A stretch of 48,312 nucleotides of DNA from Herpetosiphonaceae bacterium. GTDB lineage: Bacteria; Chloroflexota; Chloroflexia; Chloroflexales; Kallotenuaceae. The DNA lies in the NCBI GenBank assembly GCA_036374795.1, contig DASUTC010000318.1, positions 1 to 48,312 on the forward strand, given 5' to 3'. The notes beneath the pieces were generated by a model. That model was not told the origin of the DNA. It ran no database searches and saw only the letters and a list, made by a program, of their open reading frames with translations. Shown piece by piece: positions 29,313 through 41,904 of the stretch. The stretch's first letter is position 1, and each line of letters opens with the position of its first letter. Made by a program: the position numbers and the translations under genes.

Positions 29313-30194
29313 CTATCGTCGCACGGCGAAGGCGATGCCGCTTTGCAGCGTGCTCAGCGTGACGAGGCCGTTGAGATTCAAGCCCAGTCCCACGAGCGTC
29401 TGCGCGACTTCGGGACGAATGCCGGTCAGCACGATCTGCGCGCCAAGCAGCCGCACCGCGCGTGCGGCCTGCATCAGCGTGTTGGCGACATGCGTATCGA
29501 CATCGGACACGCCGGTAATATCGATGATCGCCACCTCTGCGCGGTGCGCTTCGATACCGTGGAGCAGCGCCTCGATCACCTGCTGGGCGCGCTGGGCATC
29601 GATCGTGCCGATCAGCGGCAGCACCACCACCTGATCGCTGATCGGGATTAGCGGCGTGGATAGCTCGGCCAGCATCGCCGACTGGACTTGAATGATCTGA
29701 TCTTGGAGCTGGGCGCGCTCCGCCTCGGCGCGCACGCGATCGGTAATATCGTGGATCACGGAGTAGAGGAAGCGCTGCGCGCCAAGCTCGACCGGGCCGG
29801 ACTGTACCTCGACCTGGCGGATCTCGCCGGAGGCCAGGCGATGGGGAAACAAAAAGTAGTTGCGCTGCTCGGATTCGGCGCGGGCCATCTCTGCTGCAAC
29901 CTCTTCGGGCGGCAGCATGTTGATCTGGCTAATCTTCATCTGCCGAATCTGCTCCAGGCTATAGCCGTAGAAGCGGCACGCGGCGGGATTGGCATCGATG
30001 ATCGTGCCGTCCTGCGGATCGATCATGAGCTTGATCGTCCGGTTGCGCTCGAACATCTGGCGGTAGCATCGCTCGCTGTCGCGCAGCGTCGCCTCGGCTG
30101 CCGCTCGCTCCTGCAACTGCTGCTCAAGCTCTGCAACGCGCTGCCGTAGCGCGCTCACCTCTGGCTCTAATGATAGGGGGGGCTCTGTGCTCAT
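29313..30194 (-). CDS. PAS-STAS regulator (RsbR-like)
   Basis: 293 residues: N-terminal coiled coil (about 10-45), PAS domain with PAC (about 45-160, DANPAACRFYGYS ... FLYSVIHDITDR), second coiled coil, and STAS domain (about 175-293). The STAS part has IIDITGVSDVDTHVANTLMQAARAVRLLGA, the RsbR/stressosome type, with Thr in VDT where RsbR-like proteins are phosphorylated. No RsbS, RsbT or RsbU gene is adjacent. The ATG at 30194 follows AAAGG; a heptamer array lies directly upstream inside the probable leader. Confidence 0.9.
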   Translation of the reverse strand: MSTEPPLSLEPEVSALRQRVAELEQQLQERAAAEATLRDSERCYRQMFERNRTIKLMIDPQDGTIIDANPAACRFYGYSLEQIRQMKISQINMLPPEEVAAEMARAESEQRNYFLFPHRLASGEIRQVEVQSGPVELGAQRFLYSVIHDITDRVRAEAERAQLQDQIIQVQSAMLAELSTPLIPISDQVVVLPLIGTIDAQRAQQVIEALLHGIEAHRAEVAIIDITGVSDVDTHVANTLMQAARAVRLLGAQIVLTGIRPEVAQTLVGLGLNLNGLVTLSTLQSGIAFAVRR

Positions 30195-30209: not shown

Positions 30210-30297
30210 TTCAAGTTTCAAGTTCAAAGTTCAAAGTTCACAGTTTCGAGTTCAACATTTCCCCGGTTCCTCGTTCTTTGTTCTTTGTTCTTCCTCC
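30210..30297 (-). repeat. Composite heptamer array in the leader of the PAS-STAS gene
   Basis: On the minus strand: GAACAAA-GAACAAA-GAACGAG-GAACCGG, then GAACTCG, AAACTGT, GAACTTT x2, GAACTTG, AAACTTG. It ends 15 bases before the ATG. A -10-like TATACT (30303-30298) lies immediately upstream, so the array is probably transcribed as 5' UTR. Confidence 0.85.
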
Positions 30298-30382
30298 AGT
30301 ATAACCCTCGATTGTAAGGAGATTCGTGCGAAACCGAAGTAGCCCAAAAGTAGCGATCGATGCTAAACATTGTGTTCGCGGC

Positions 30383-30411
30383 TTGACACAGACGGTACAC
30401 TTTCAATCTAT
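30383..30411 (+). promoter_or_regulatory. Possible promoter of the DUF6624 gene
   Basis: A perfect TTGACA (30383-30388) with ATCTAT (30406-30411) at 17 bp; the -10 box is weak. Confidence 0.4.
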
Positions 30412-30432
30412 CGGGTATGCGATGAGGGTTCC

Positions 30433-31023
30433 ATGAACGAGCAACTTCGTGCTGAGTTATTACAGATGCAGGCCGAAGATCTTGCCACACGTCGAGAGCT
30501 TATCGAAGCGGGCGAGCTGTATGGGCCGCATCTGCCTAAAGACTGGTACCATCCCCGTATGGCCGCCGTGCATCGGAAGAATAACGCGCGCATGAGCGAA
30601 ATATTGGAACAATACGGCTGGCCGGGCGAAGGTCTGGTCGGAGCCGAGGGAGGCCAGGCCGCCTGGCGGATCGTACAGCATGCCATTCTCGACCACGATC
30701 TCCAACAGCGGGCCTTACCCTTGCTGGAAGCAGCGGTCAAGGCAGGAGAAGCGCCAGCCCAGCAGTGGGCCATGCTGACGGATCGCGTGCTCATGGAGTC
30801 CGGCCAGCCGCAGATCTACGGCTCGATCTTCGTGGGCGATGAGCACGGCGGCATCGTACCGTGGACGCTGGCCGACCCGGACACCGTGGATGCGCGCCGA
30901 GCCAGCGTTGGCTTAGCGCCGCTCAGCGACCACGCAGACAGCCTGCGACGGCGTGTTGGCGTCGAGCAAGCAGTTCAGCAGACGGCGCAGGCAAAGACAC
31001 ACAAGAGCGCGCCGGAACCATAG
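30433..31023 (+). CDS. DUF6624 domain protein
   Basis: 196 residues. The family pattern is visible: AAWRIVQHAILDHDLQQ, QWAMLTDRVLMESGQPQIYGSIF, with conserved QHA, LxDR and G-PQ-YG. Function unknown. No signal peptide. The ATG at 30433 has GAGGG upstream; the frame reaches back to 30370 with no better start. Monocistronic; it converges on the acyl-CoA dehydrogenase. Confidence 0.78.
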   Translation: MNEQLRAELLQMQAEDLATRRELIEAGELYGPHLPKDWYHPRMAAVHRKNNARMSEILEQYGWPGEGLVGAEGGQAAWRIVQHAILDHDLQQRALPLLEAAVKAGEAPAQQWAMLTDRVLMESGQPQIYGSIFVGDEHGGIVPWTLADPDTVDARRASVGLAPLSDHADSLRRRVGVEQAVQQTAQAKTHKSAPEP

Positions 31024-32310: not shown

Positions 32311-32348
32311 CGCAGCGGATGAATCGTTGCAATTGTTGATCGGCTTTG

Positions 32349-33500
32349 ATGATGAATACTCGACGCTGGCAAGACTTCAACCTCTACCTGATGATTAGCG
32401 TGCTGGTGCTGCTGGGCTTCGGCACGGCAATGGTCTATAGCACGACGATCGGCAACAACTACCGGGGCGATGTCTGGAGCCTCAGCAGCCCGTTCGCCCG
32501 GCATTTTATCTGGATAGGCATCGGCGCAGGCGCGATGCTGTTCCTGACGCTGTTCGACTACCACAACCTGCAAATCTTCACCCGCCCGCTGTACATCTTT
32601 ATGCTGCTGCTGCTAGGCTACACGCTGCTGGCAGGCAAGATCGCCAGCGGCGCGCAGAGCTGGCTCCTGGGCGAGTCGAGCGGCCAGCCGTCGGAGCCCG
32701 CGAAGCTGCTGCTGATCATCAGCCTGGCGGCGTGGTGGGCCAACCACGACGAGCAGGGCCACTCCTGGTTTACGCTTGGCGGCTCGCTGCTGCTGGCCGG
32801 AGCGCCGCTGCTGCTGGTGCTGCTCCAGCCCGATCTCGGCACGGCGATGGTGATCGGCGTGATGTGGCTGGCGATGGCCTGGGCGGCGGGGATGACCTGG
32901 AAGCAGGCGGCAGTGCTGTTGATGATCGCGATTCCGGTGCTGTATATCGGCTGGAACTATGTGCTTGAGCCGTACCAGCAGGGCCGTCTGCTTGCGTTTA
33001 CCATGACGCGCGACGAGATCGAGCATATCAAAGATCCCAAGGTCTACGACGCCGTGGCGCGTGTCTTCTACAACGTCGACGCCTCGAAAGTCGCGGTCGG
33101 CAACGGCGGGCTGACCGGCCAGGGCTTGCTCAACGGCATTCAAAGCCAGCGCAACTTCTTGCCGGTGCAGTACACCGACTTTATCTTCGCGGTGACGGCA
33201 GAGGAGCTTGGCTTCGTCGGCGCGGCGACCATGCTGGGCTTTATCTGCCTGGTCCTGTGGCAGGCCGTGAGCATCGCCTACCGCGCCAAAGATACGTTTG
33301 GGCGGCTGATCGCCGTGGGCATCTTTGCGATGCTGCTGATTCATACGTATGAGAACGTCGGGATGAACATGGGCATGATGCCGGTGACAGGCATTCCGCT
33401 GCCGTTCATCTCCTACGGCGGCTCGTTTACCGTAACCGTCCTGGCGGCGGTCGGGCTGCTCCAGAGCATCAGCCTGCGCCATCGCTCGCTGACGTTCTAG
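32349..33500 (+). CDS. rodA: SEDS-family peptidoglycan polymerase, RodA-like
   Basis: 383 residues from the first ATG at 32349. About ten transmembrane helices. Typical SEDS blocks: LLQPDLGTAMVIGV, FILPVQYTDFIFAVTAEELGFVG-like region (NFLPVQYTDFIF) and ENVGMNMGMMPVTGIPLPFISYGGSFTV. ENxGMNxGxMPVTGIPLPF is closer to RodA than to FtsW. It polymerises lipid II glycan with a class B PBP, which is not in the window. The adjacent kinase-phosphatase-FHA island may regulate wall growth, as kinases do in other bacteria, but nothing here proves it. Confidence 0.92.
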   Translation: MMNTRRWQDFNLYLMISVLVLLGFGTAMVYSTTIGNNYRGDVWSLSSPFARHFIWIGIGAGAMLFLTLFDYHNLQIFTRPLYIFMLLLLGYTLLAGKIASGAQSWLLGESSGQPSEPAKLLLIISLAAWWANHDEQGHSWFTLGGSLLLAGAPLLLVLLQPDLGTAMVIGVMWLAMAWAAGMTWKQAAVLLMIAIPVLYIGWNYVLEPYQQGRLLAFTMTRDEIEHIKDPKVYDAVARVFYNVDASKVAVGNGGLTGQGLLNGIQSQRNFLPVQYTDFIFAVTAEELGFVGAATMLGFICLVLWQAVSIAYRAKDTFGRLIAVGIFAMLLIHTYENVGMNMGMMPVTGIPLPFISYGGSFTVTVLAAVGLLQSISLRHRSLTF

Positions 33501-33611: not shown

Positions 33612-33668
33612 CCGCCGGGCACGCGGCGTTTCTATAATGCTCGATACCTGATAGTAGCGCATCAGGTG
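33612..33668 (+). promoter_or_regulatory. rodA terminator overlapping the kinase-operon promoter, with 5' hairpin
   Basis: GCCGC (33612-33616) pairs with GCGGC (33624-33628), followed by GTTTCT. TATAAT (33634-33639) lies in the tail. At the predicted transcript start, ACCTGAT pairs with ATCAGGT (about 33647-33669). The start ATG of the kinase follows about 95 bases later. Confidence 0.4.
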
Positions 33669-33764
33669 GATGGTTATTGGGTCGGCAGGTGCTCCTTCTT
33701 TGCTATTCTTCTTCGGTCGCCGCCCCCCGTCCGTCTCGCTTTTATCTTCCTCAGGGAGGGCGGC

Positions 33765-35792
33765 ATGTCATTGCTCAAAAAAGGTGGCACGACCAAAGGG
33801 ATTTCGCTCCCTCAGTCTGTGACTGCGCCCGATGCGAAGGAGACAACCGACTCACCTCCATCCGGCTCGGTTGGTTCCATTCCCCGGCCAGCGACCGGCT
33901 TCGGGACGGGCAGCATCCGGCGCTCGACGACTCAACTCCAAATGTTGCCCAGCGGCACCGTGCTGCAAGGCCGCTACGCCGTCGAAAACGTGCTCGGCGT
34001 CGGCGGTATGAGCATGGTCTACCGTGGCCGCGATCTGCGCTTCAAGGACGTGATCCGCACCTGCGCGATCAAGGAGATGTACCAGAGCGCGCCCGACTCG
34101 AACACGCGCCTGCTGACGCTCAAAAACTTCGAGCGCGAGTCGGGGCTGCTGGCGACGCTCAGCCACCCGGCGATTCCGAAAGTCTATGATTTCTTCGAGG
34201 AGAACGATCGGATCTACCTGATCATGGAGCTGATCGCGGGGCGCGACCTGGAGGCGACGCTCGATCAGGCCAAGCAGCCGATCGCCGAGCAGCGCGCCGG
34301 AAGCTGGGCGCTCCAGATCTGCGATGTGCTGCACTACCTGCACAACCACTCGCCCGAACCGATCATCTTCCGCGATATGAAGCCGTCGAACGTGATCGTC
34401 ACGCCGGAAGACCGCATCGTGATGATCGACTTCGGCATCGCGCGCATCTTTCAGGAAAACCAGCGCAAAGGCACGATGATCGGCACCGAGGGCTACGCGC
34501 CGCCGGAGCAGTATCGTGGTATTGCCGATCCGCGCGGCGACGTCTACGCTCTGGGCGCGACGCTGCACCACCTGCTGACCAATGTCGATCCGCGCACCGA
34601 GACGCCCTTCACCTTCCACGAGCGCCCGATCCGCCAGATCAACCCGCAGATTTCGGCGGAGATGGAGGCCGTGGTGATGCAGGCGCTAGAATACGATCCG
34701 ACCCAGCGGCCACAGACCGCCGCCGAGTTCAAGTCGCTCCTGCTCAGCGTGCCCTGCCTCAAGGGGCTGAGCGGCGGGATCGCCGCGCCGGTGGCCGCGC
34801 CCGCGATCAACGTGCGCAGCGGCAAAGGCGCGACAACCGAGCTAGTCTGGCGCTTCGCGTGCGAGGACGAGGTGCGCTCATCGCCGCATGTGCGCGACGC
34901 GCTGGTCTATGTCGGCAGCTACGACACCAACCTGTACGCGCTAGACGCCATGACCGGCGAGTTCCGCTGGAAGCGCGCGACGCTCGGCGGCGTCTCGTCG
35001 TCGCCGACGACCTGGGGCGATCTGGCGCTGATCGGGTCGGAGGACGGCCAGCTCTATGCCCTCGACTCGCGCAAAGGCACCGTCAAGTGGACCTTCCGCA
35101 CGGGTCGCGCGGTGCGCTCGTCGCCGCGCGTCGAGGATCGCATCATCTACGTCGGCTCCGACGACCAGCACGTGTACGCCATCGATGGGCAGAACGGACG
35201 ACAGCTCTGGAAATACCGCGCCTGGATGCCGGTTCGATCCTCCTGCGGCATCGGTCAGGGCATGGTCGCAGTGGGATCGTCGGACGGGCACGTCTACGCC
35301 CTCGACGCATTCAACGGCGGTCTGCGCTGGAAGCACCGCACCCAGCAGGGCGTGATCTCGTCGCCAGCGATCAGCGACGGGCTGGTCTTCGTCGGCTCGA
35401 TGGATAACAACGTCTATGCCCTGGACGGCGAGGGCGGCTGGCCCGTGTGGCGCTTCAAGACGGGCCACTACGTCAACGCCTCGCCCGCCGTCGTCGGCAT
35501 GCGCCTGTTTGTGGGCAGCGTAGACGGCAGCTTCTACGCCCTGGAAACCAAGAGCGGCAAGCTCGTCTGGAAGTTCGAGAGCGGCACGCAGATCACCTCG
35601 TCGGCGCGCGTCGTCGAGGGACGGGTGTATTTCGGCGGCGTGAACGGCATGATCTACTGCCTGGATGCGTCGAGCGGCGCGCTGATCTGGCAGTACCAGG
35701 CCGAGGCAGCGGTCGTGTCGTCGCCCGCCGTCGCCAACGGAATCGTGTACGTCGGCTCGCTCGATCATCATCTGTACGCGCTGAAAGCCTAG
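33765..35792 (+). CDS. Ser/Thr protein kinase fused to an eight-repeat PQQ-like beta-propeller
   Basis: 675 residues from the ATG at 33765 (AGGGAGGG upstream; the frame is open to 33609 without a better site). Kinase domain about 70-330: glycine loop GVGGMSMVYRG (78-88), Lys103, FRDMKPSN with catalytic D204, DFG 222-224, GTEGYAPPEQY activation segment. From about 360 to the end come eight propeller repeats of the form SSP-x-VGSxDxxLYALDxxxGxxxW, a PQQ_2/pyrrolo-quinoline-like domain. No obvious transmembrane segment lies between the two parts, so both should be cytoplasmic. HRD is replaced by FRD. First gene of the signalling island. Confidence 0.93.
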   Translation: MSLLKKGGTTKGISLPQSVTAPDAKETTDSPPSGSVGSIPRPATGFGTGSIRRSTTQLQMLPSGTVLQGRYAVENVLGVGGMSMVYRGRDLRFKDVIRTCAIKEMYQSAPDSNTRLLTLKNFERESGLLATLSHPAIPKVYDFFEENDRIYLIMELIAGRDLEATLDQAKQPIAEQRAGSWALQICDVLHYLHNHSPEPIIFRDMKPSNVIVTPEDRIVMIDFGIARIFQENQRKGTMIGTEGYAPPEQYRGIADPRGDVYALGATLHHLLTNVDPRTETPFTFHERPIRQINPQISAEMEAVVMQALEYDPTQRPQTAAEFKSLLLSVPCLKGLSGGIAAPVAAPAINVRSGKGATTELVWRFACEDEVRSSPHVRDALVYVGSYDTNLYALDAMTGEFRWKRATLGGVSSSPTTWGDLALIGSEDGQLYALDSRKGTVKWTFRTGRAVRSSPRVEDRIIYVGSDDQHVYAIDGQNGRQLWKYRAWMPVRSSCGIGQGMVAVGSSDGHVYALDAFNGGLRWKHRTQQGVISSPAISDGLVFVGSMDNNVYALDGEGGWPVWRFKTGHYVNASPAVVGMRLFVGSVDGSFYALETKSGKLVWKFESGTQITSSARVVEGRVYFGGVNGMIYCLDASSGALIWQYQAEAAVVSSPAVANGIVYVGSLDHHLYALKA

Positions 35793-35806
35793 GAACACCG
35801 AGGGCA

Positions 35807-35849
35807 GGAACCGGGAGCCAATCCAATCAAACGCATGGCTCCCGGTTCC
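35807..35849 (+). other. Long perfect hairpin between kinase and phosphatase genes
   Basis: A 14-bp perfect stem, GGAACCGGGAGCCA (35807-35820) with TGGCTCCCGGTTCC (35836-35849), and a 15-nt loop, with no T-run. It may control mRNA processing or lower downstream expression rather than terminate. Confidence 0.6.
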
Positions 35850-35895
35850 CGCTGCTTCAATCGCCCCCCGTACTGGTCCCCGAAAGGAGCCGCCG

Positions 35896-36930
35896 ATGCC
35901 GGCCTGGCGAGACATGCTATCGCGCTTCCGCAAAACCGCGCCTACCCATTCCAATTCTGAGATTGCCACGGCAACCGTCGCCGACCCCGGCGTAGAAACG
36001 CTGGTCGCGCCGCATAATCTGCCGATCGAGATACCTGCCGCCGCGCCTGAGGCCGAGTCGCAGCCGATCGAGGCCGACGAGACGCGCCGGTTTGGCGATA
36101 CAACCCGCTCGCTGGCGTCGAGCGCGCCGCACCTGGCGGTGCTGCTGGGCGAGCGCGTGCTCAGCGCTGCGGCGCTGCGAGACATTGGCCGCGAACGACA
36201 AGAAAACCAGGATCACTGCTGCGCGCAGATCGTGACCCTGCCCAGCGATCACAGCGATCTGACGCTTGGACTCTTCGTGGTCGCCGACGGCATGGGGGGC
36301 CACCACGATGGCGGCTATGCCTCGAAGCTGGCGCTGACCACGGTGGTACAGGCGGTGCAGGCCGAGTACGTGCTGCCGATCTTGAGCGGCGAGCGCCGAG
36401 CGCCCCAGCCGATCATGCAGGCGGCGGTGCAGGCGGCCAACGCTGCGGTACACGCCGCCGGGCAGGAGGCGGGCAACGACATGGGCACCACCTGCACGGC
36501 GGTGCTGCTCGACGGCCAGCAGTTGATCACGGCGCATGTCGGCGATACGCGGGCGCTGCTGATCGGCGGCGGCGTCAAGCAGCTCACCACAGATCACACC
36601 GCCGTGGGACGGCTGATCGCGATCGGCGCGCTCACGCCGGAGGAGGCGCTCGATCACCCGCTGCGGAGTCATCTGTATCGCAGCGTCGGGCAGACGCCCG
36701 ACGTGACCGTCGATGTGACGACGACGACGATCCACGACGAGAGCCATCTGGTGATCTGCTCCGACGGGCTGTGGGGCCTGGTGCCCGAAGCGGAGATCGC
36801 CGACATCGTGACGGAAGCGCCGACCGCGCAGATCGCCGCGCGGCACCTGATTGCTCGTGCTAACCTGCTTGGCGGCCACGACAATATCTCAGTAGTGGTC
36901 GTCACGCTTCCCGACGGATCGCGAGGCTAG
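35896..36930 (+). CDS. PP2C-family protein phosphatase
   Basis: 344 residues. An N-terminal extension of about 80 residues (Ala/Thr/Glu-rich) precedes a PP2C domain with the metal-binding acidic residues in D106 (RQENQDH) and D131 (VADGMGGHHDGG), GTTCTAVLL, AHVGDTRALLI, CSDGLWGLV and GGHDNISVVVV. Partner phosphatase to the upstream kinase. ATG with AAAGGAG; the VWA gene begins three bases after its stop. Confidence 0.95.
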   Translation: MPAWRDMLSRFRKTAPTHSNSEIATATVADPGVETLVAPHNLPIEIPAAAPEAESQPIEADETRRFGDTTRSLASSAPHLAVLLGERVLSAAALRDIGRERQENQDHCCAQIVTLPSDHSDLTLGLFVVADGMGGHHDGGYASKLALTTVVQAVQAEYVLPILSGERRAPQPIMQAAVQAANAAVHAAGQEAGNDMGTTCTAVLLDGQQLITAHVGDTRALLIGGGVKQLTTDHTAVGRLIAIGALTPEEALDHPLRSHLYRSVGQTPDVTVDVTTTTIHDESHLVICSDGLWGLVPEAEIADIVTEAPTAQIAARHLIARANLLGGHDNISVVVVTLPDGSRG

Positions 36931-36933
36931 CCC

Positions 36934-38163
36934 ATGACAGCACCGATCACCCTCCACATCCAGCCAGCCCGCGCCGCGCTTCAGGTATCGAGCGAGCCAC
37001 AGATGGTCTATCTGATGGTGACGGGCCGCGCCGCCGCGACGAGCCAGAAGCACCTGCCGCTGAATCTATGCCTGGTGCTGGATCGCTCCTCCTCGATGCG
37101 CGGCGAGCGTCTGTTTCAGGTCAAAGAGGCGGCGCGTCAGGTGCTCAGCCAGATGCAGAGCACCGATGCGTTCGGGCTGGTGGCGTTCAACGATCGGGCC
37201 GAGGTGATCGTTCCGTCGCAGCAGGTGCGCGATGCCGAGTCGCTCAAGGCGCAGGTGATGAGCCTTGAGGCGCGCGGCGGCACCGAGATGGCGCAAGGGC
37301 TGGCGCTGGGCCTGCAAGAGATCGAGCGGCCAAAGATCAACGGTATTAGCCGCCTGGTGCTGCTGACCGACGGACGGACCTACGGCGACGAGCACGCCTG
37401 CGTCGAGCTGGCACGGCGGGCGCAGCGGCGCGGCATTGGCCTGACCACGCTTGGCGTCGGCACGGAGTGGAACGAAGACCTGCTTGAGACGATGACCGCC
37501 GGGCCGAACAGCCGGACGCAGTACATCACCGCCGCGAGCGAGATCGGCAATGTCTTTGTGGCGGAGCTAAACCGGCTGCACGCGACGGTCGCCCAGAGCG
37601 TCGAGCTGACGCTCTCGATCAGCGCCGAGACGCAGATCCATGCCTGCTATCGCGTCCAGCCGTTTATCGCGCAGCTTTATCCACAGGCAGCGGGAAGCGG
37701 CACGTGGCGCGTCCCGATCGGCGAGTGGGCCGCCAACGAAGACCAGACCTTTATCGTCGAGCTGATCGTGCCGCCCGTAACCACCGGCACCCACAGCGTG
37801 GCACGGCTCGACCTGCGCTATGAGCTGGTTGGGACGATGGGCACGCAATCGGCGGCGGCGGTGGTGCAGCTTCCCGCCCTCCTGGACGAGCAGCCGGTCG
37901 CGTCTGAGGTCCGCCGCGCGCTGGAGCGGATGGTCGCCTACCAGTTGCAAACGCGCGCCTGGGAGGCCGTTGCCGAGGGTAAGATCGAGGATGCGACCAA
38001 GCGGCTGAGGATGGCGGGCACGCATCTCTTCAACTCAGGCGAGGTGGCGCTGGCGGAGATGGCGCACGCCGAGGCGACACGCCTGTTGCAGGGCGGCTCG
38101 ACCAGCGCCGACGGGCGCAAGCGGATCAAATACGGAACGCGCGGTCTGATCGCCGGACGCTAG
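36934..38163 (+). CDS. VWA-domain protein
   Basis: 409 residues. The von Willebrand A domain (about 40-215) has a complete MIDAS: D50-x-S52-x-S54 in LVLDRSSSMRG, T in GGTEMAQG and D in LLTDGRTYGD. The C-terminal beta-rich and helical part is unassigned. No signal peptide. Co-directional and nearly touching the phosphatase (three-base gap). VWA proteins with FHA/kinase/phosphatase neighbours are seen in type VI/stress clusters; here no secretion genes are present. Confidence 0.92.
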   Translation: MTAPITLHIQPARAALQVSSEPQMVYLMVTGRAAATSQKHLPLNLCLVLDRSSSMRGERLFQVKEAARQVLSQMQSTDAFGLVAFNDRAEVIVPSQQVRDAESLKAQVMSLEARGGTEMAQGLALGLQEIERPKINGISRLVLLTDGRTYGDEHACVELARRAQRRGIGLTTLGVGTEWNEDLLETMTAGPNSRTQYITAASEIGNVFVAELNRLHATVAQSVELTLSISAETQIHACYRVQPFIAQLYPQAAGSGTWRVPIGEWAANEDQTFIVELIVPPVTTGTHSVARLDLRYELVGTMGTQSAAAVVQLPALLDEQPVASEVRRALERMVAYQLQTRAWEAVAEGKIEDATKRLRMAGTHLFNSGEVALAEMAHAEATRLLQGGSTSADGRKRIKYGTRGLIAGR

Positions 38164-38193
38164 TGAGCCAGCAGGCCGGGGCTGTGGGGAATG

Positions 38194-38327
38194 GAAGAAC
38201 AAAGAACCAAGAACCGGGTACCAGGCGCACAAAGAACAAGGGAACAAAGGAACAAGGGAAAACCCGGAACCAAGAACCTGGACCCCTGATCCCTGGACTT
38301 GGAACTTGAAACTTGGAACTTGAAACT
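38194..38327 (+). repeat. Composite heptamer array running into the FHA gene start
   Basis: GAACAAA-GAACCAA-GAACCGG-GTACCAG, a GCGCAC-n insert, GAACAAG/GGAACAAA units, then GAACCAA-GAACCTG-GACCCCT-GATCCCT-GGACTTG-GAACTTG-AAACTTG-GAACTTG-AAACTAT, the last unit overlapping the ATG at 38328. Clear single-phase heptamers over the last 60 bases. Confidence 0.9.
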
Positions 38328-38834
38328 ATGATCTGTCCTAGCTGTCAAAGCCAGAATATTCGCGGCACGATCTTTTGCCTCAACTGCGGCATGAGCTTGC
38401 TGCCCCAGGATCGCGCCCCCGATACCACGTCGATGTTAGGCGCGCGTCCATCGGCTCGCGCGGCGCAGGAGCGTACGGTCAGGGCGGAGCCCGCGCCTGC
38501 CAGCGGCGAGCGCCGCTTCTCCGCGACGGTGCTTAACAGCGGGCGGCGCATCGACGTGCCGCTGGTGACAGCGCTGCTGATCGGGCGGCAAGACGCGGCG
38601 CGGGGACACTTCCCCGACATCGATCTCAACCCCGACGGCGGCTACGACAGCGGCGTGAGCCGCCGCCACGCCCGGATCAGCCTGGACTCTGGCGCGGCAT
38701 ACATCGAAGATCTGGATAGCGCCAACGGCAGCTTTATCAGCGATACGCGCTTGCAGCCACGTACCGCCTATCGTTTGCAGGCAGGCGATGAGCTACGGCT
38801 TGGATCGCTCATTCTACGCATTGAAAGGGTTTAG
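38328..38834 (+). CDS. Zinc-ribbon / FHA-domain protein
   Basis: 168 residues. N-terminal zinc ribbon with C3, C6, C17 and C20; a Thr/Ala-rich linker (about 28-65, with TT at 33-34) resembling the phospho-Thr-containing linkers of GarA-type proteins; FHA domain about 70-168 with the phosphothreonine-binding residues R87, S111, R113/H114 and N133. Likely reads phosphorylation by the upstream kinase. No Shine-Dalgarno sequence: the start codon directly follows the heptamer array. The frame could extend to a TTG at 38313, but those codons are repeat DNA. Confidence 0.9.
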   Translation: MICPSCQSQNIRGTIFCLNCGMSLLPQDRAPDTTSMLGARPSARAAQERTVRAEPAPASGERRFSATVLNSGRRIDVPLVTALLIGRQDAARGHFPDIDLNPDGGYDSGVSRRHARISLDSGAAYIEDLDSANGSFISDTRLQPRTAYRLQAGDELRLGSLILRIERV

Positions 38835-38839
38835 AGAGT

Positions 38840-39088
38840 ATGGCACGCACTGTGATTGTTCATATCGCCGGCGAAGATCCCGTGATCGCCGAGATCGAGC
38901 ATGAGCCGCAGCCCAGCGATACGTTTATTCATGTCAGCAACCTGCGTAAGCGCGACGGCAAGGAAGTTCACTACCTATCGCCGGGCGTCCAGTCGGTGAT
39001 CTTCCCGTGGAACCGCATCACGTTTCTTGAGTTCATGGTCGACGAGGAAGAGCGCGGCAAGGTGGTCGACTTCTTCCGGCTGGATTAA
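38840..39088 (+). CDS. Small conserved-looking protein of the kinase island, 82 residues
   Basis: Five bases after the FHA stop, with AGAGAG upstream. An acidic, beta-rich protein (TVIVHIAGEDPVIAEIEHE, FIHVSNLRKRDGKEV, SVIFPWNRITFLEFM), ending in a short helix. No domain recognised; no membrane segment. Position suggests a partner of the FHA protein. Confidence 0.7.
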   Translation: MARTVIVHIAGEDPVIAEIEHEPQPSDTFIHVSNLRKRDGKEVHYLSPGVQSVIFPWNRITFLEFMVDEEERGKVVDFFRLD

Positions 39089-39267: not shown

Positions 39268-40869
39268 CTACGCCTCCCACACGCTGCGCCCGCCGACGAA
39301 CGTCTGCGCGACCTGCATGCGCCAGAGATCATCGGGATCGACCGCGAACGGATCGGCTTCGAGCACCAGCAGATCGGCGCGCAGGCCCGGCATGAGCGGC
39401 CCCTTGAGCGCTGTCTCGCCTGATGCGATGGCCGGGCCGACGACATAGGCCCGCAGCGCGTCGTGCAGGCTCAGCGCCAGCTCGCGGTACCAGCCCTGCG
39501 GCGGCTGCCCATCCTGGCGCTTGCGCGTCACGGCGGCATGAATCCCCGCCCACGGGTCGAGCGTCTCGACGGGCGCGTCGGAGCCAAAGGCCAGCACCGC
39601 GCCGGACTGTAGCAACGGCTGCCAGGCGTAGGCCCAGGCGCAGCGCTCGCCGCCCAGCAGCCGCTCGGCAATCTCCATATCGGAGGTCGCGTGGATCGGC
39701 TGCATCGAGGCGATCACGTTGAGCGCCGCAAAGCGCGGCACGTCCGCCGGATCGAGATGCTGGGCGTGCTCGATCCGATTCGGCAGGAGCGGACGCAGCG
39801 CCTCCGCGCCCTGAGCGGCGAAGGCCGCGTGCTGCGCCGCGATCGCATCCAGTACCGTGCGATTGGCTCGATCGCCGATCGCGTGGACGGTGACGGCGAT
39901 GCCGTGCGTATTGGCCTTGCGCACCGCCGCGTGCAGCTCCTCCTCAGGGATCGTCGGCAGGCCGCAGGTGGTACTGCCCGCGAAGGGCGCGAGCATATGG
40001 CAGGTACACGAGCCGAGCGAGCCGTCGCCGAAGATTTTCACGCCGCCGATCCGCAGCCACTCATCGCCGAAGCCTGAGCGCACGCCCAGCGCGATATAGT
40101 CGTCGAGCTGGCGATAGGGCAGATGGAAGAGGCAGCGCGCGTTGAGCTGGTCGGCGGCACGTAGCGCCTGAAGCGCCGCCAGCGTCGCCGGGCCTTCGGG
40201 CATATGCAGGCTGGTCAGGCCGCGCTCGTTGCAGGCCCGGATGATCTCGCGCAGCGCCTGGATGTCCTCGGTCAGCGACGGCTCCGGCACGATGCGATAG
40301 ATCAGATCGTTGGCGTTCTCCAGCAAAATTCCGGTCGGCAGGCCATGCTCGTCGCGCTGGATCAGCCCGCCGTCGGGGTCGGGCGTGTGCTCGTCGATTC
40401 CGGCCAGGGCCAGTGCGCGGCTATTGATCCAGACCGAGTGGCCGTCTTTGCGCGACAGAACCGCTGGATGGCCCAGGGTGACGCGATCCAGCTCCAGCGC
40501 CGTCGGCCAGCGATAATCCCACAGCGCGTGGTTCCAGCCGTGGCCGCGCAGCCACGCGCCCTCCGGCAAATCCTCGGCGCGCTGCCGGATCAGCTCCAGC
40601 GCCTCGTCGAGCGACCTCACGCCGTCGAGATCGGCATGCTGGCGACCCTGTGCGGTCCAGAGCAGATGGATATGCGCGTCGGTCAGACCAGGGATCAGCG
40701 CGCGCCCGGCTAGCGGCACGTCCTCGTAGCCTGGCCGAAGCTGCTCGCGCACCGCTGCGGCGCTGCCCACCGCCACGATCGTATCGTCGCGCACCAGCAG
40801 CGCCTCGGCCTGAGCCTGCTGCGGATCGAGCGTGTAGATCGGGCCGCCGTGAAAGAGTATGTCTGGCAT
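39268..40869 (-). CDS. Amidohydrolase, YtcJ-like (Amidohydro_3)
   Basis: 533 residues from the ATG at 40869 (GGAG upstream; the frame reaches 40902 in repeat DNA). Metal-binding segment DAHIHLLWTA near residue 65; further blocks GLTSLHMPEGPATL, FGDGSLGS, HAIGDRANRTVLDAI and IEHAQHLDP, and AFGSDAPVE at the Asp. Hydrolyses an unknown amide/imide; YtcJ-type members are poorly characterised. It lies downstream of psuG, with a repeat array between. Confidence 0.88.
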   Translation of the reverse strand: MPDILFHGGPIYTLDPQQAQAEALLVRDDTIVAVGSAAAVREQLRPGYEDVPLAGRALIPGLTDAHIHLLWTAQGRQHADLDGVRSLDEALELIRQRAEDLPEGAWLRGHGWNHALWDYRWPTALELDRVTLGHPAVLSRKDGHSVWINSRALALAGIDEHTPDPDGGLIQRDEHGLPTGILLENANDLIYRIVPEPSLTEDIQALREIIRACNERGLTSLHMPEGPATLAALQALRAADQLNARCLFHLPYRQLDDYIALGVRSGFGDEWLRIGGVKIFGDGSLGSCTCHMLAPFAGSTTCGLPTIPEEELHAAVRKANTHGIAVTVHAIGDRANRTVLDAIAAQHAAFAAQGAEALRPLLPNRIEHAQHLDPADVPRFAALNVIASMQPIHATSDMEIAERLLGGERCAWAYAWQPLLQSGAVLAFGSDAPVETLDPWAGIHAAVTRKRQDGQPPQGWYRELALSLHDALRAYVVGPAIASGETALKGPLMPGLRADLLVLEADPFAVDPDDLWRMQVAQTFVGGRSVWEA

Positions 40870-40877
40870 AAACACTC

Positions 40878-40962
40878 CGAAGAACAAAGAACAACGGAAC
40901 AAAGAACAAAGAACCGGGTGCCATGCCCAAAGGGCGCACGAAGAACGAAGAACAACAACGCA
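40878..40962 (+). repeat. GAACAAA array between psuG and the amidohydrolase
   Basis: Units GAACAAA, GAACAAC, GGAACAAA, GAACAAA, GAACCGG, then an insert GGTGCC-n-GCCCAAAGGGC-GCAC, then GAACGAA and GAACAAC. First repeat type only, reading on the plus strand and so antisense to the adjacent minus-strand genes. It ends next to the ATG at 40869, where a GGAG site is kept. Confidence 0.75.
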
Positions 40963-40965
40963 AGA

Positions 40966-41904
40966 TTACCTGTTCTCTGCTCTTTGTGCTCTTTGGGCGC
41001 TGTTTGCTATCGCCACCGCCACCTCCGCCGCCACGCGCGCGTTGTTTTCCAGCAGCGCGATGTTCGTCTCAAGGCTGCGCCCGCCGGTTTCATCCTTCAT
41101 CGCCGCGAGCAGGAACGGCGTTACCTGCGCGCCGTGGATACCCTGACGCCGCGCCTCGGCCAGCGCCCGCCCGATCGCCGCCTCGACCTCCTCCGGCGGC
41201 AGCGCGGCCTCCTCCGGCGGCGGCACCGCCAGCACCATCCCGCCCCCGCCGCCCAGCCAGCGATGCGCCTGCCACAGCGCCGCGACCGCCTCGGGCGTGT
41301 CGGCGCGCGCCGAGAGCCGCAGGCCGCTGGACCGCGAGTAGAACGACGGAAACTCATCGGTGCCGTAGCCCACGACGGGCACGCCCAGCGTTTCGAGCAC
41401 CTCCAGCGTCGCGGGAATGTCGAGGATCGACTTGGCACCCGCGCAGACTACCAGCACCGGCGTACGGCCTAGCTCCGTCAGATCGCCGGACACGTCCCAG
41501 GTTTCGCGCGCGCCGCGATGAACGCCGCCGATGCCGCCCGTGGCAAAGACCTGCACGCCCGCAGCGTGCGCCAGCGCCATCGTTCCCGCGACCGTGGTCG
41601 CGCCGTCCTGGCTGGTGACGACCGCCAGCGCCAGGTCGCGCCGCGACAGCTTCAGCACATCCGCGCCCGTGGCAAAGCGCTCGATCGCCGCCTCGTCCAG
41701 CCCGATTGTCGGCTGGCCGCGCACCACGCCGATCGTCGCGGGCTGCGCGCCACGCTCACGCACGATCGACTCCAGCGCGTAGGCAACCTCGCGATTGCGC
41801 GGCTGCGGCAGCCCATGCGCGATTACCGTCGATTCGAGCGCGACGACCGCGCGACCCTGCGCCAGCGCCGCTTGCACAGCCGCATGAATAGATACTTGCA
41901 TCAT
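40966..41904 (-). CDS. psuG: Pseudouridine-5'-phosphate glycosidase
   Basis: 312 residues from the ATG at 41904 (AGGAG upstream; the frame extends to 41964 without support). Splits pseudouridine-5'-phosphate to uracil and ribose-5-phosphate. Family blocks: VALESTVIAHGLPQPRN, TIGVVRGQPTIGL, KLSRRDLA, FATGGIGGVHRGA, CAGAKSILDIPATLE and GGRSLETNIALLENNA. The uracil product can be used by Upp (18.7 kb). The PsuK-like kinase is 15 kb away rather than adjacent. Confidence 0.95.
   Translation of the reverse strand: MMQVSIHAAVQAALAQGRAVVALESTVIAHGLPQPRNREVAYALESIVRERGAQPATIGVVRGQPTIGLDEAAIERFATGADVLKLSRRDLALAVVTSQDGATTVAGTMALAHAAGVQVFATGGIGGVHRGARETWDVSGDLTELGRTPVLVVCAGAKSILDIPATLEVLETLGVPVVGYGTDEFPSFYSRSSGLRLSARADTPEAVAALWQAHRWLGGGGGMVLAVPPPEEAALPPEEVEAAIGRALAEARRQGIHGAQVTPFLLAAMKDETGGRSLETNIALLENNARVAAEVAVAIANSAQRAQRAENR

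Follow-up and report, generated by a model that had tools for sequence, protein, structure and literature searches.

A conserved five-gene kinase-phosphatase-VWA-FHA cassette of Chloroflexota as a probable phosphothreonine circuit with an ArnA/ArnB-like pair

Five contiguous open reading frames (ORFs) of a Herpetosiphonaceae bacterium, all on the + strand and spanning positions 33765-39088 of the window (the whole 48,312-nucleotide stretch analysed here, from contig DASUTC010000318.1 of assembly GCA_036374795.1), encode a Ser/Thr kinase (KIN), a PP2C phosphatase (PP2C), a VWA protein (VWA), a zinc-ribbon FHA protein (FHA) and a protein of 82 residues (P82). We consider it likely that this locus is a self-contained, FHA-centred phosphothreonine (pThr) circuit, in which an ArnA/ArnB-like pair has a dedicated propeller kinase and PP2C beside it and is joined by a small protein of predicted Sm-like fold. 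A more ambitious proposal, which we put forward tentatively and at slightly less than an even chance, is that of a phylum-wide bacterial system, undescribed in the literature searched, whose writer, eraser, scaffold and reader would share a pThr-x-x-[Ile/Leu] address for a single FHA reader, with an ArnA/ArnB-type core known from archaea and a small protein of Sm fold as constant fifth part.

The linkage of these genes goes far beyond chance. It was assessed in 41 genomes of the order (32 loci fetched), in 400 genomes drawn across Chloroflexota, and in 40 loci outside the order. At the threshold used, KIN was matched in 34 of the 41 order genomes, 33 of these matches being full-length or nearly so, and nearly every genome of the order has it as a single copy, at about 57-82% identity. 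The cassette is missing from members of genus g5, whose genomes measure about 3 Mb. In 31 of the 32 order loci the genes run KIN-PP2C-VWA-FHA-P82 (the exception, G004, is without PP2C), and this arrangement recurs in many other Chloroflexota families and classes. Across the 400-genome sample P82 was found in 126 genomes and KIN in 96; all 96 KIN genomes hold P82, and in 84 of them it follows KIN on the same strand within 5 kb (hypergeometric p 4e-66 for co-occurrence, relatedness ignored). The cassette is real, strongly conserved, and more closed than a preliminary description of this DNA could see. That description had recognised the linked writer, eraser and reader set on one strand, with the expected Pkinase, PP2C, VWA and zinc ribbon plus FHA domains, and a Thr-Thr linker in FHA, all of which were borne out; it had tied the set to rodA, which was not, and had overlooked the kinase propeller, the ArnA/ArnB relation and a Thr motif shared by four of the proteins.

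FHA and VWA constitute a bacterial pair with the architecture of ArnA/ArnB, with their own kinase and phosphatase alongside. FHA comprises an N-terminal zinc ribbon (C..C, C..C) and an FHA domain (Pfam) whose pThr pocket residues are conserved in the alignment, and the top match of its family profile against all Protein Data Bank (PDB) chains was ArnA of Sulfolobus (5a8i, E 2.6e-13). The AlphaFold2 (AF2) model of VWA (predicted local distance difference test, pLDDT, 93) shows a VWA domain inserted in a beta-sandwich, together with a four-helix bundle, and the metal-ion-dependent adhesion site (MIDAS) motif DRSSS (residue 50) is intact. Compared with ArnB (8s05_B), the model gave Z 31.3 over 369 aligned residues (root-mean-square deviation 3.9), and Z 38.6 with 4fx5, both structures scoring above single-domain VWA chains; a sequence search with VWA also matches ArnB (8s05_A). 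In Sulfolobus, the zinc finger of ArnA holds unphosphorylated ArnB, whereas its FHA domain holds phosphorylated ArnB (PMC12852372). The pThr of ArnB is located in the C-terminal helical region (PMC6509490, PMC12852372), and ArnB phosphopeptides cover ETTRRI (PMC6509490), a TxxI that fits the pattern of the cassette motif described below. In the cassette, VWA carries a near-invariant C-terminal KYGTRxL, of which T402, R403 and L405 are invariant in a phylum-wide alignment of 29 sequences (members 28-63% identical to the window VWA); judging from its sequence, the Thr is a candidate site for phosphorylation and FHA binding. The partners differ, an ArnC/ArnD-type kinase and PP2A being replaced in the Pfam matches by the PQQ-propeller kinase and PP2C.

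Both enzymes of the cassette look catalytically intact. The kinase domain of KIN occupies residues ~71-318 (Pfam) and retains K103, FRDMKPSN (202) and DFG (222), while residues ~405-675 form a PQQ/BamB-like beta-propeller (PF13570 E 6e-73, PF13360 E 2e-56). KIN is thus more than a bare catalytic domain, and a kinase without accessory domain was rejected on the Pfam evidence. Pfam detects no PASTA repeats, and no transmembrane segment is apparent. Membership of the PASTA kinases (PknB/Stk1) was likewise rejected, for want of both the repeats and a membrane anchor and with scores under the curated cut-offs. Against the NCBIfam AfsK equivalog model KIN reached 205.1 bits, far from the cut-off of 1300, and plasmid-borne Streptomyces kinases align to 85-92% of KIN with 35-39% identity. 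PP2C matches PF00481/PF13672 and the NCBIfam Stp1 model (202 bits), and its motifs RQENQD, DGMGGH, SDGL and GGHDN are in place. The FHA linker holds a Thr-Thr motif whose second Thr hardly varies across the order (24 sequences), even though the surrounding linker does. In PknG, autophosphorylated Thr residues of the N-terminal extension recruit the FHA domain of GarA, whose phosphorylatable motif is ETTS (PMC8546545). The cassette FHA itself is not an OdhI equivalog (27.9 bits on the NCBIfam model, cut-off 200).

A motif T-x-x-[ILM] is common to the tails of KIN, PP2C and FHA and to the VWA C-terminus. Counting one locus per genus, Ile, Leu or Met (ILM) stands at Thr+3 for 36% of the Thr residues in KIN tails (77/212), 28% in PP2C (63/226), 30% in the FHA linker (51/170) and 59% in VWA (44/75), counts that were reached by none of 2000 shuffles. 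At other offsets the frequency is mostly around 5-19%, with VWA also peaking at -4 and +4 (inherited). The controls were lower: ILM follows at Ser+3 in 11% of cases pooled over KIN, PP2C and FHA tails (19% in FHA linkers alone), and at Thr+3 in 8% within disordered-like segments of other ORFs and in 11% (26/242) within disordered segments of 21 other kinases. The motif takes different forms among relatives, such as DATRGI and EEGTRQI in the KIN tails of families f2 and f4, where the Txx[IL] sites stand in arrays, TAPL, TEPL and DGTRQI in PP2C tails, and RETTASL (a RETTxSL pattern in the order) and LTTQNI in FHA linkers, including those of other families. Some KIN N-tails (L133, L056-L062) contain tandem GDTRRGLTPPP or DATRGI-type repeats, an arrangement that suggests multivalent docking by quickly expanding arrays.

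FHA domains read pThr, with the +3 residue as a recognised though variable determinant (PMC4037201). The motif might instead be nothing but the consensus of the kinase, KIN having several substrates of which FHA reads just one (VWA or itself), so that no hub with a shared code would exist. A single kinase's consensus would indeed place the motif in all four proteins, its own tail included, and the Thr-specific enrichment fits a Thr-preferring kinase. However, family f5, in which no close zinc-ribbon FHA was found, keeps the kinase but lacks the tail motif (1 of 10 Thr residues), which ties the motif to the reader; this counter-evidence is softened by the short f5 tails, of which only five were tested. 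On balance we regard the consensus explanation as rather unlikely. Several points weigh against the favoured circuit itself. Since the sequences counted share ancestry, the motif counts are not independent, and in VWA the motif is for the most part an inherited one; the residue class ILM was picked after the sequences had been seen. The hydrophobic +3 position could reflect the substrate preference of the kinase and not that of FHA, and according to one study the +3 selectivity of FHA domains is weak in general (PMC4037201). In addition, AF2 confidently predicts a helix at whose end the VWA Thr sits, rather than in free disorder, and a few families keep the genes with one member devoid of a clear motif (e.g., the kinase tails of f41 and f76).

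In the FHA-centred circuit that we favour, KIN would autophosphorylate T-x-x-[IL] sites in its own disordered N-terminal tail, onto which the FHA domain would dock as GarA docks on PknG. The docked kinase could then phosphorylate the Thr-Thr motif of the FHA linker and the K-Y-G-T-R-x-L of the VWA C-terminus. FHA would clamp the ArnB-like VWA, weakly through the zinc ribbon and tightly through the FHA domain after phosphorylation. Because PP2C bears the same motif in its own tail, this reader may recruit it too and so allow it to reset the system. FHA could be closed on itself or bound to kinase, phosphatase or VWA, its state being set by competition among the pThr sites. The propeller of KIN might serve as signal sensor, and P82, which accompanies the kinase (or FHA), probably acts at the output, as adaptor or effector.

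The preliminary description had counted P82 among two candidate effectors. Three variant arrangements are informative here. Family f5 retains KIN-P82 only; family f43 carries KIN-PP2C-VWA at one site and FHA-P82 at another in the same genome; and in family f27 (L113, L114, L127, L128, L130) KIN is missing and a diverged P82 relative is found close to dprA and topA. P82 is therefore the constant element, most closely tied to KIN or FHA, and a constant partner describes it better than a spare effector. In f43 and f40 (L102, L107, L119, L129) the FHA and P82 genes stand beside NAD kinase and recN, and the f27 relative has a C-terminal LRRVREx motif, similar to that of P82, after a longer variable linker. 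P82 has no Pfam, NCBIfam or PADLOC match; the family is strongly conserved, with a mean column identity of 79% within the order; a single-sequence search of genome contigs matched one congener, and identification through a PDB sequence search was abandoned, the matches being at chance level. Its AF2 model (pLDDT 82) is a small five-stranded barrel that is suggestive of an Sm-like fold (Z up to 7.6 against Lsm chains, Foldseek E 0.04 or worse). Against this assignment, a Z of about 7-8 is within the tool's range for a common arrangement. The Sm family is absent from the Pfam and NCBIfam matches, and the PDB profile search returned no Lsm chain, results with which a remote relation is still compatible. 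The C-terminal VIDFFR tail is conserved and modelled with low confidence, which would fit a tail that binds a partner.

An output in stress or DNA damage, or in proteostasis, has also to be weighed, with VWA acting together with Hsp70 (through a J domain) or with repair factors. VWA homologues of other classes have an N-terminal DnaJ domain (PF00226; L105:7909-9438, L109:7971-9437, L099:7091-8668 and L112:7823-9394), which hints at an Hsp70 link that is absent in the window's order. The neighbourhoods with NAD kinase and recN in f43 and with dprA and topA in f27 point the same way, and ArnA represses the DNA damage response in Saccharolobus (PMC10470591). Nevertheless, the window VWA is without a J domain (Pfam), the neighbour genes vary between families, and direct evidence is lacking; we judge this output improbable.

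The cassette includes the kinase-PP2C-VWA gene triad of TerY-P type, and such triads occur in conflict neighbourhoods (PMC7159879), which raises the question of an anti-phage or conflict system. The kinase domain of KIN scores with PADLOC kinase models, but these are generic kinase matches; moreover, the cassette is single-copy, is conserved in nearly all genomes of the order and includes no effector domain. P82 is absent from the plasmid collection, on which ground a mobile element was rejected, and this counts against a conflict function too. Such a function seems very improbable. As the preliminary description had stated, no secretion genes accompany the cassette, and on the type VI secretion TagH-type model FHA scored 31.4 bits (cut-off 120), which places it outside the PpkA/PppA/Fha sets of that system.

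The adjacent rodA, 264 bp upstream of KIN, had been taken as a sign that cell-wall growth is the target. Under that explanation the cassette would be a soluble counterpart to the actinobacterial fhaA-fhaB-pstP-rodA-pbpA-pknA-pknB cluster, directed at the adjacent RodA (and RodZ in f2). In families f1 and f2 (12 of the 32 order loci) rodA is the gene immediately before KIN, and in f2 (L056-L062) RodZ-like (HTH_25 + RodZ_C) and YajQ-like (DUF520) genes lie downstream; AfsK-type kinases act on polar growth in Streptomyces. Since a RodZ-like gene also flanks the cassette there, a link to cell shape is possible in the f2 lineage. As a property of the module it does not hold up: the cassette has no RodA nearby in f3, f4 or any of the 40 loci from other families; of the three FTSW/RODA genes that the genome contains, one stands in a murD/murG neighbourhood (ORF inspection); and there is no PASTA domain, transmembrane segment or adjoining penicillin-binding protein (PBP). 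RodA, adjacent in two families only, thus stands outside the module and was rejected as an obligatory partner, and regulation of the cell wall or of elongation appears quite improbable.

The features of the locus are collected in Table 1. KIN most likely starts at 33765 (ATG after AGGGAGGGC) and not at 33612, because homologues align from MSLLKK, and FHA probably starts at the ATG at 38328. The genes are separated by 103 bp (KIN-PP2C), 3 bp (PP2C-VWA), 164 bp (VWA-FHA) and 5 bp (FHA-P82). None of the five proteins has a transmembrane-like stretch in hydropathy, and promoter and terminator scans were uninformative, with matches at chance level. Short AAGAACAAAGAACC-like repeats occur in intergenic stretches of the window (38163-38328, about 40850-41010 and 30224-30300). 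Near the locus and outside the module lie genes for a PAS-STAS protein (29313-30194) and a DUF6624 protein (30370-31023), both assigned by Pfam.

Table 1. Features of the cassette and its upstream neighbour (positions in the window).
Feature	Position	Strand	Basis
RodA/FtsW-family neighbour	32346..33500	+	Pfam; linkage in two families only
KIN, Ser/Thr kinase with C-terminal PQQ/BamB-like beta-propeller, soluble	33765..35792	+	Pfam; no transmembrane stretch
KIN N-terminal tail with Txx[IL] sites T10 (TKGI, 33792), T48 (TGSI, 33906), T55 (TTQL, 33927)	33765..33938	+	Motif positions
PP2C phosphatase with N-terminal tail	35896..36930	+	Pfam, NCBIfam, catalytic motifs
PP2C N-tail motif T70-R-S-L	36103..36114	+	Motif scan
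VWA, ArnB/Sec23-24-core-like	36934..38163	+	AF2 model, structure matches
VWA C-terminal motif K-Y-G-T402-R-G-L	38128..38148	+	Alignment of 29 sequences
FHA, N-terminal zinc ribbon, linker and FHA domain	38328..38834	+	Pfam, profile search, alignment
FHA linker Thr-Thr motif TTSML, GarA-like candidate phospho-switch	38424..38438	+	Alignment of 24 sequences
P82, 82-residue protein, predicted Sm/Lsm-like small barrel, C-terminal VVDFFR tail conserved	38840..39088	+	AF2 model, column identity

A search of the open literature, which did not cover subscription papers on TerY-P triads, found no description of the cassette. FHA-pThr circuits and kinase-PP2C-VWA triads are already known, whereas for this set of genes, its linkage across the phylum and the common motif no description was found in the literature searched. 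Three themes that have been studied separately, namely archaeal ArnA/ArnB, PknG-GarA docking and AfsK-type propeller kinases, come together in the cassette, a compact row of genes that much of Chloroflexota has conserved, and the family of 82-residue proteins gains a context. From the shared motif, specific phosphosites can be predicted on four proteins, and a reader for them, so that five purified proteins would suffice to test the whole circuit.

Among known systems, the actinobacterial fhaA-pknB cluster also brings FHA, PP2C, RodA and kinase genes together, as the cassette does in f1 and f2 only, but the cassette is without PASTA, PBP or membrane kinase and rodA is not conserved with it. 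Kinase-PP2C-vWA triads (TerY-P type, GAP1-N2 neighbourhoods) have adjacent kinase, PP2C and standalone VWA genes; in the cassette these are joined by the genes for zinc-ribbon FHA and P82, and Ter or GTPase-centred genes are absent. The predicted small five-stranded barrel of P82 resembles Lsm chains, at Z 7-8 only and without a detected sequence relationship to Sm/Lsm proteins. AfsK of Streptomyces is likewise a Ser/Thr kinase followed by a PQQ-repeat beta-propeller, whereas KIN sits inside a five-gene cassette. As in the PknG-GarA/OdhI system of Actinobacteria, the kinase has a Thr-containing N-terminal tail, and in the FHA protein a putatively phosphorylatable Thr-Thr motif precedes the FHA domain; however, KIN is without rubredoxin or TPR, the cassette FHA has a zinc ribbon, and no link to 2-oxoglutarate dehydrogenase is known for the cassette. 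In the ArnA-ArnB module of the Sulfolobus archaellum regulatory network, with ArnC/ArnD kinases and PP2A, the dedicated kinase of the cassette has its counterpart in enzymes with OB/TPR instead of a PQQ propeller, and the eraser is PP2A instead of a PP2C in the same gene row. The cassette is also bacterial, has P82 in addition, and shows no archaellum genes among its neighbours (no genome-wide search for them was made). Despite these differences, in both systems adjacent genes encode a zinc-ribbon FHA protein and its VWA partner, the three-part fold of the latter is common to the two, and Thr sites with TxxI lie in its C-terminal helical region.

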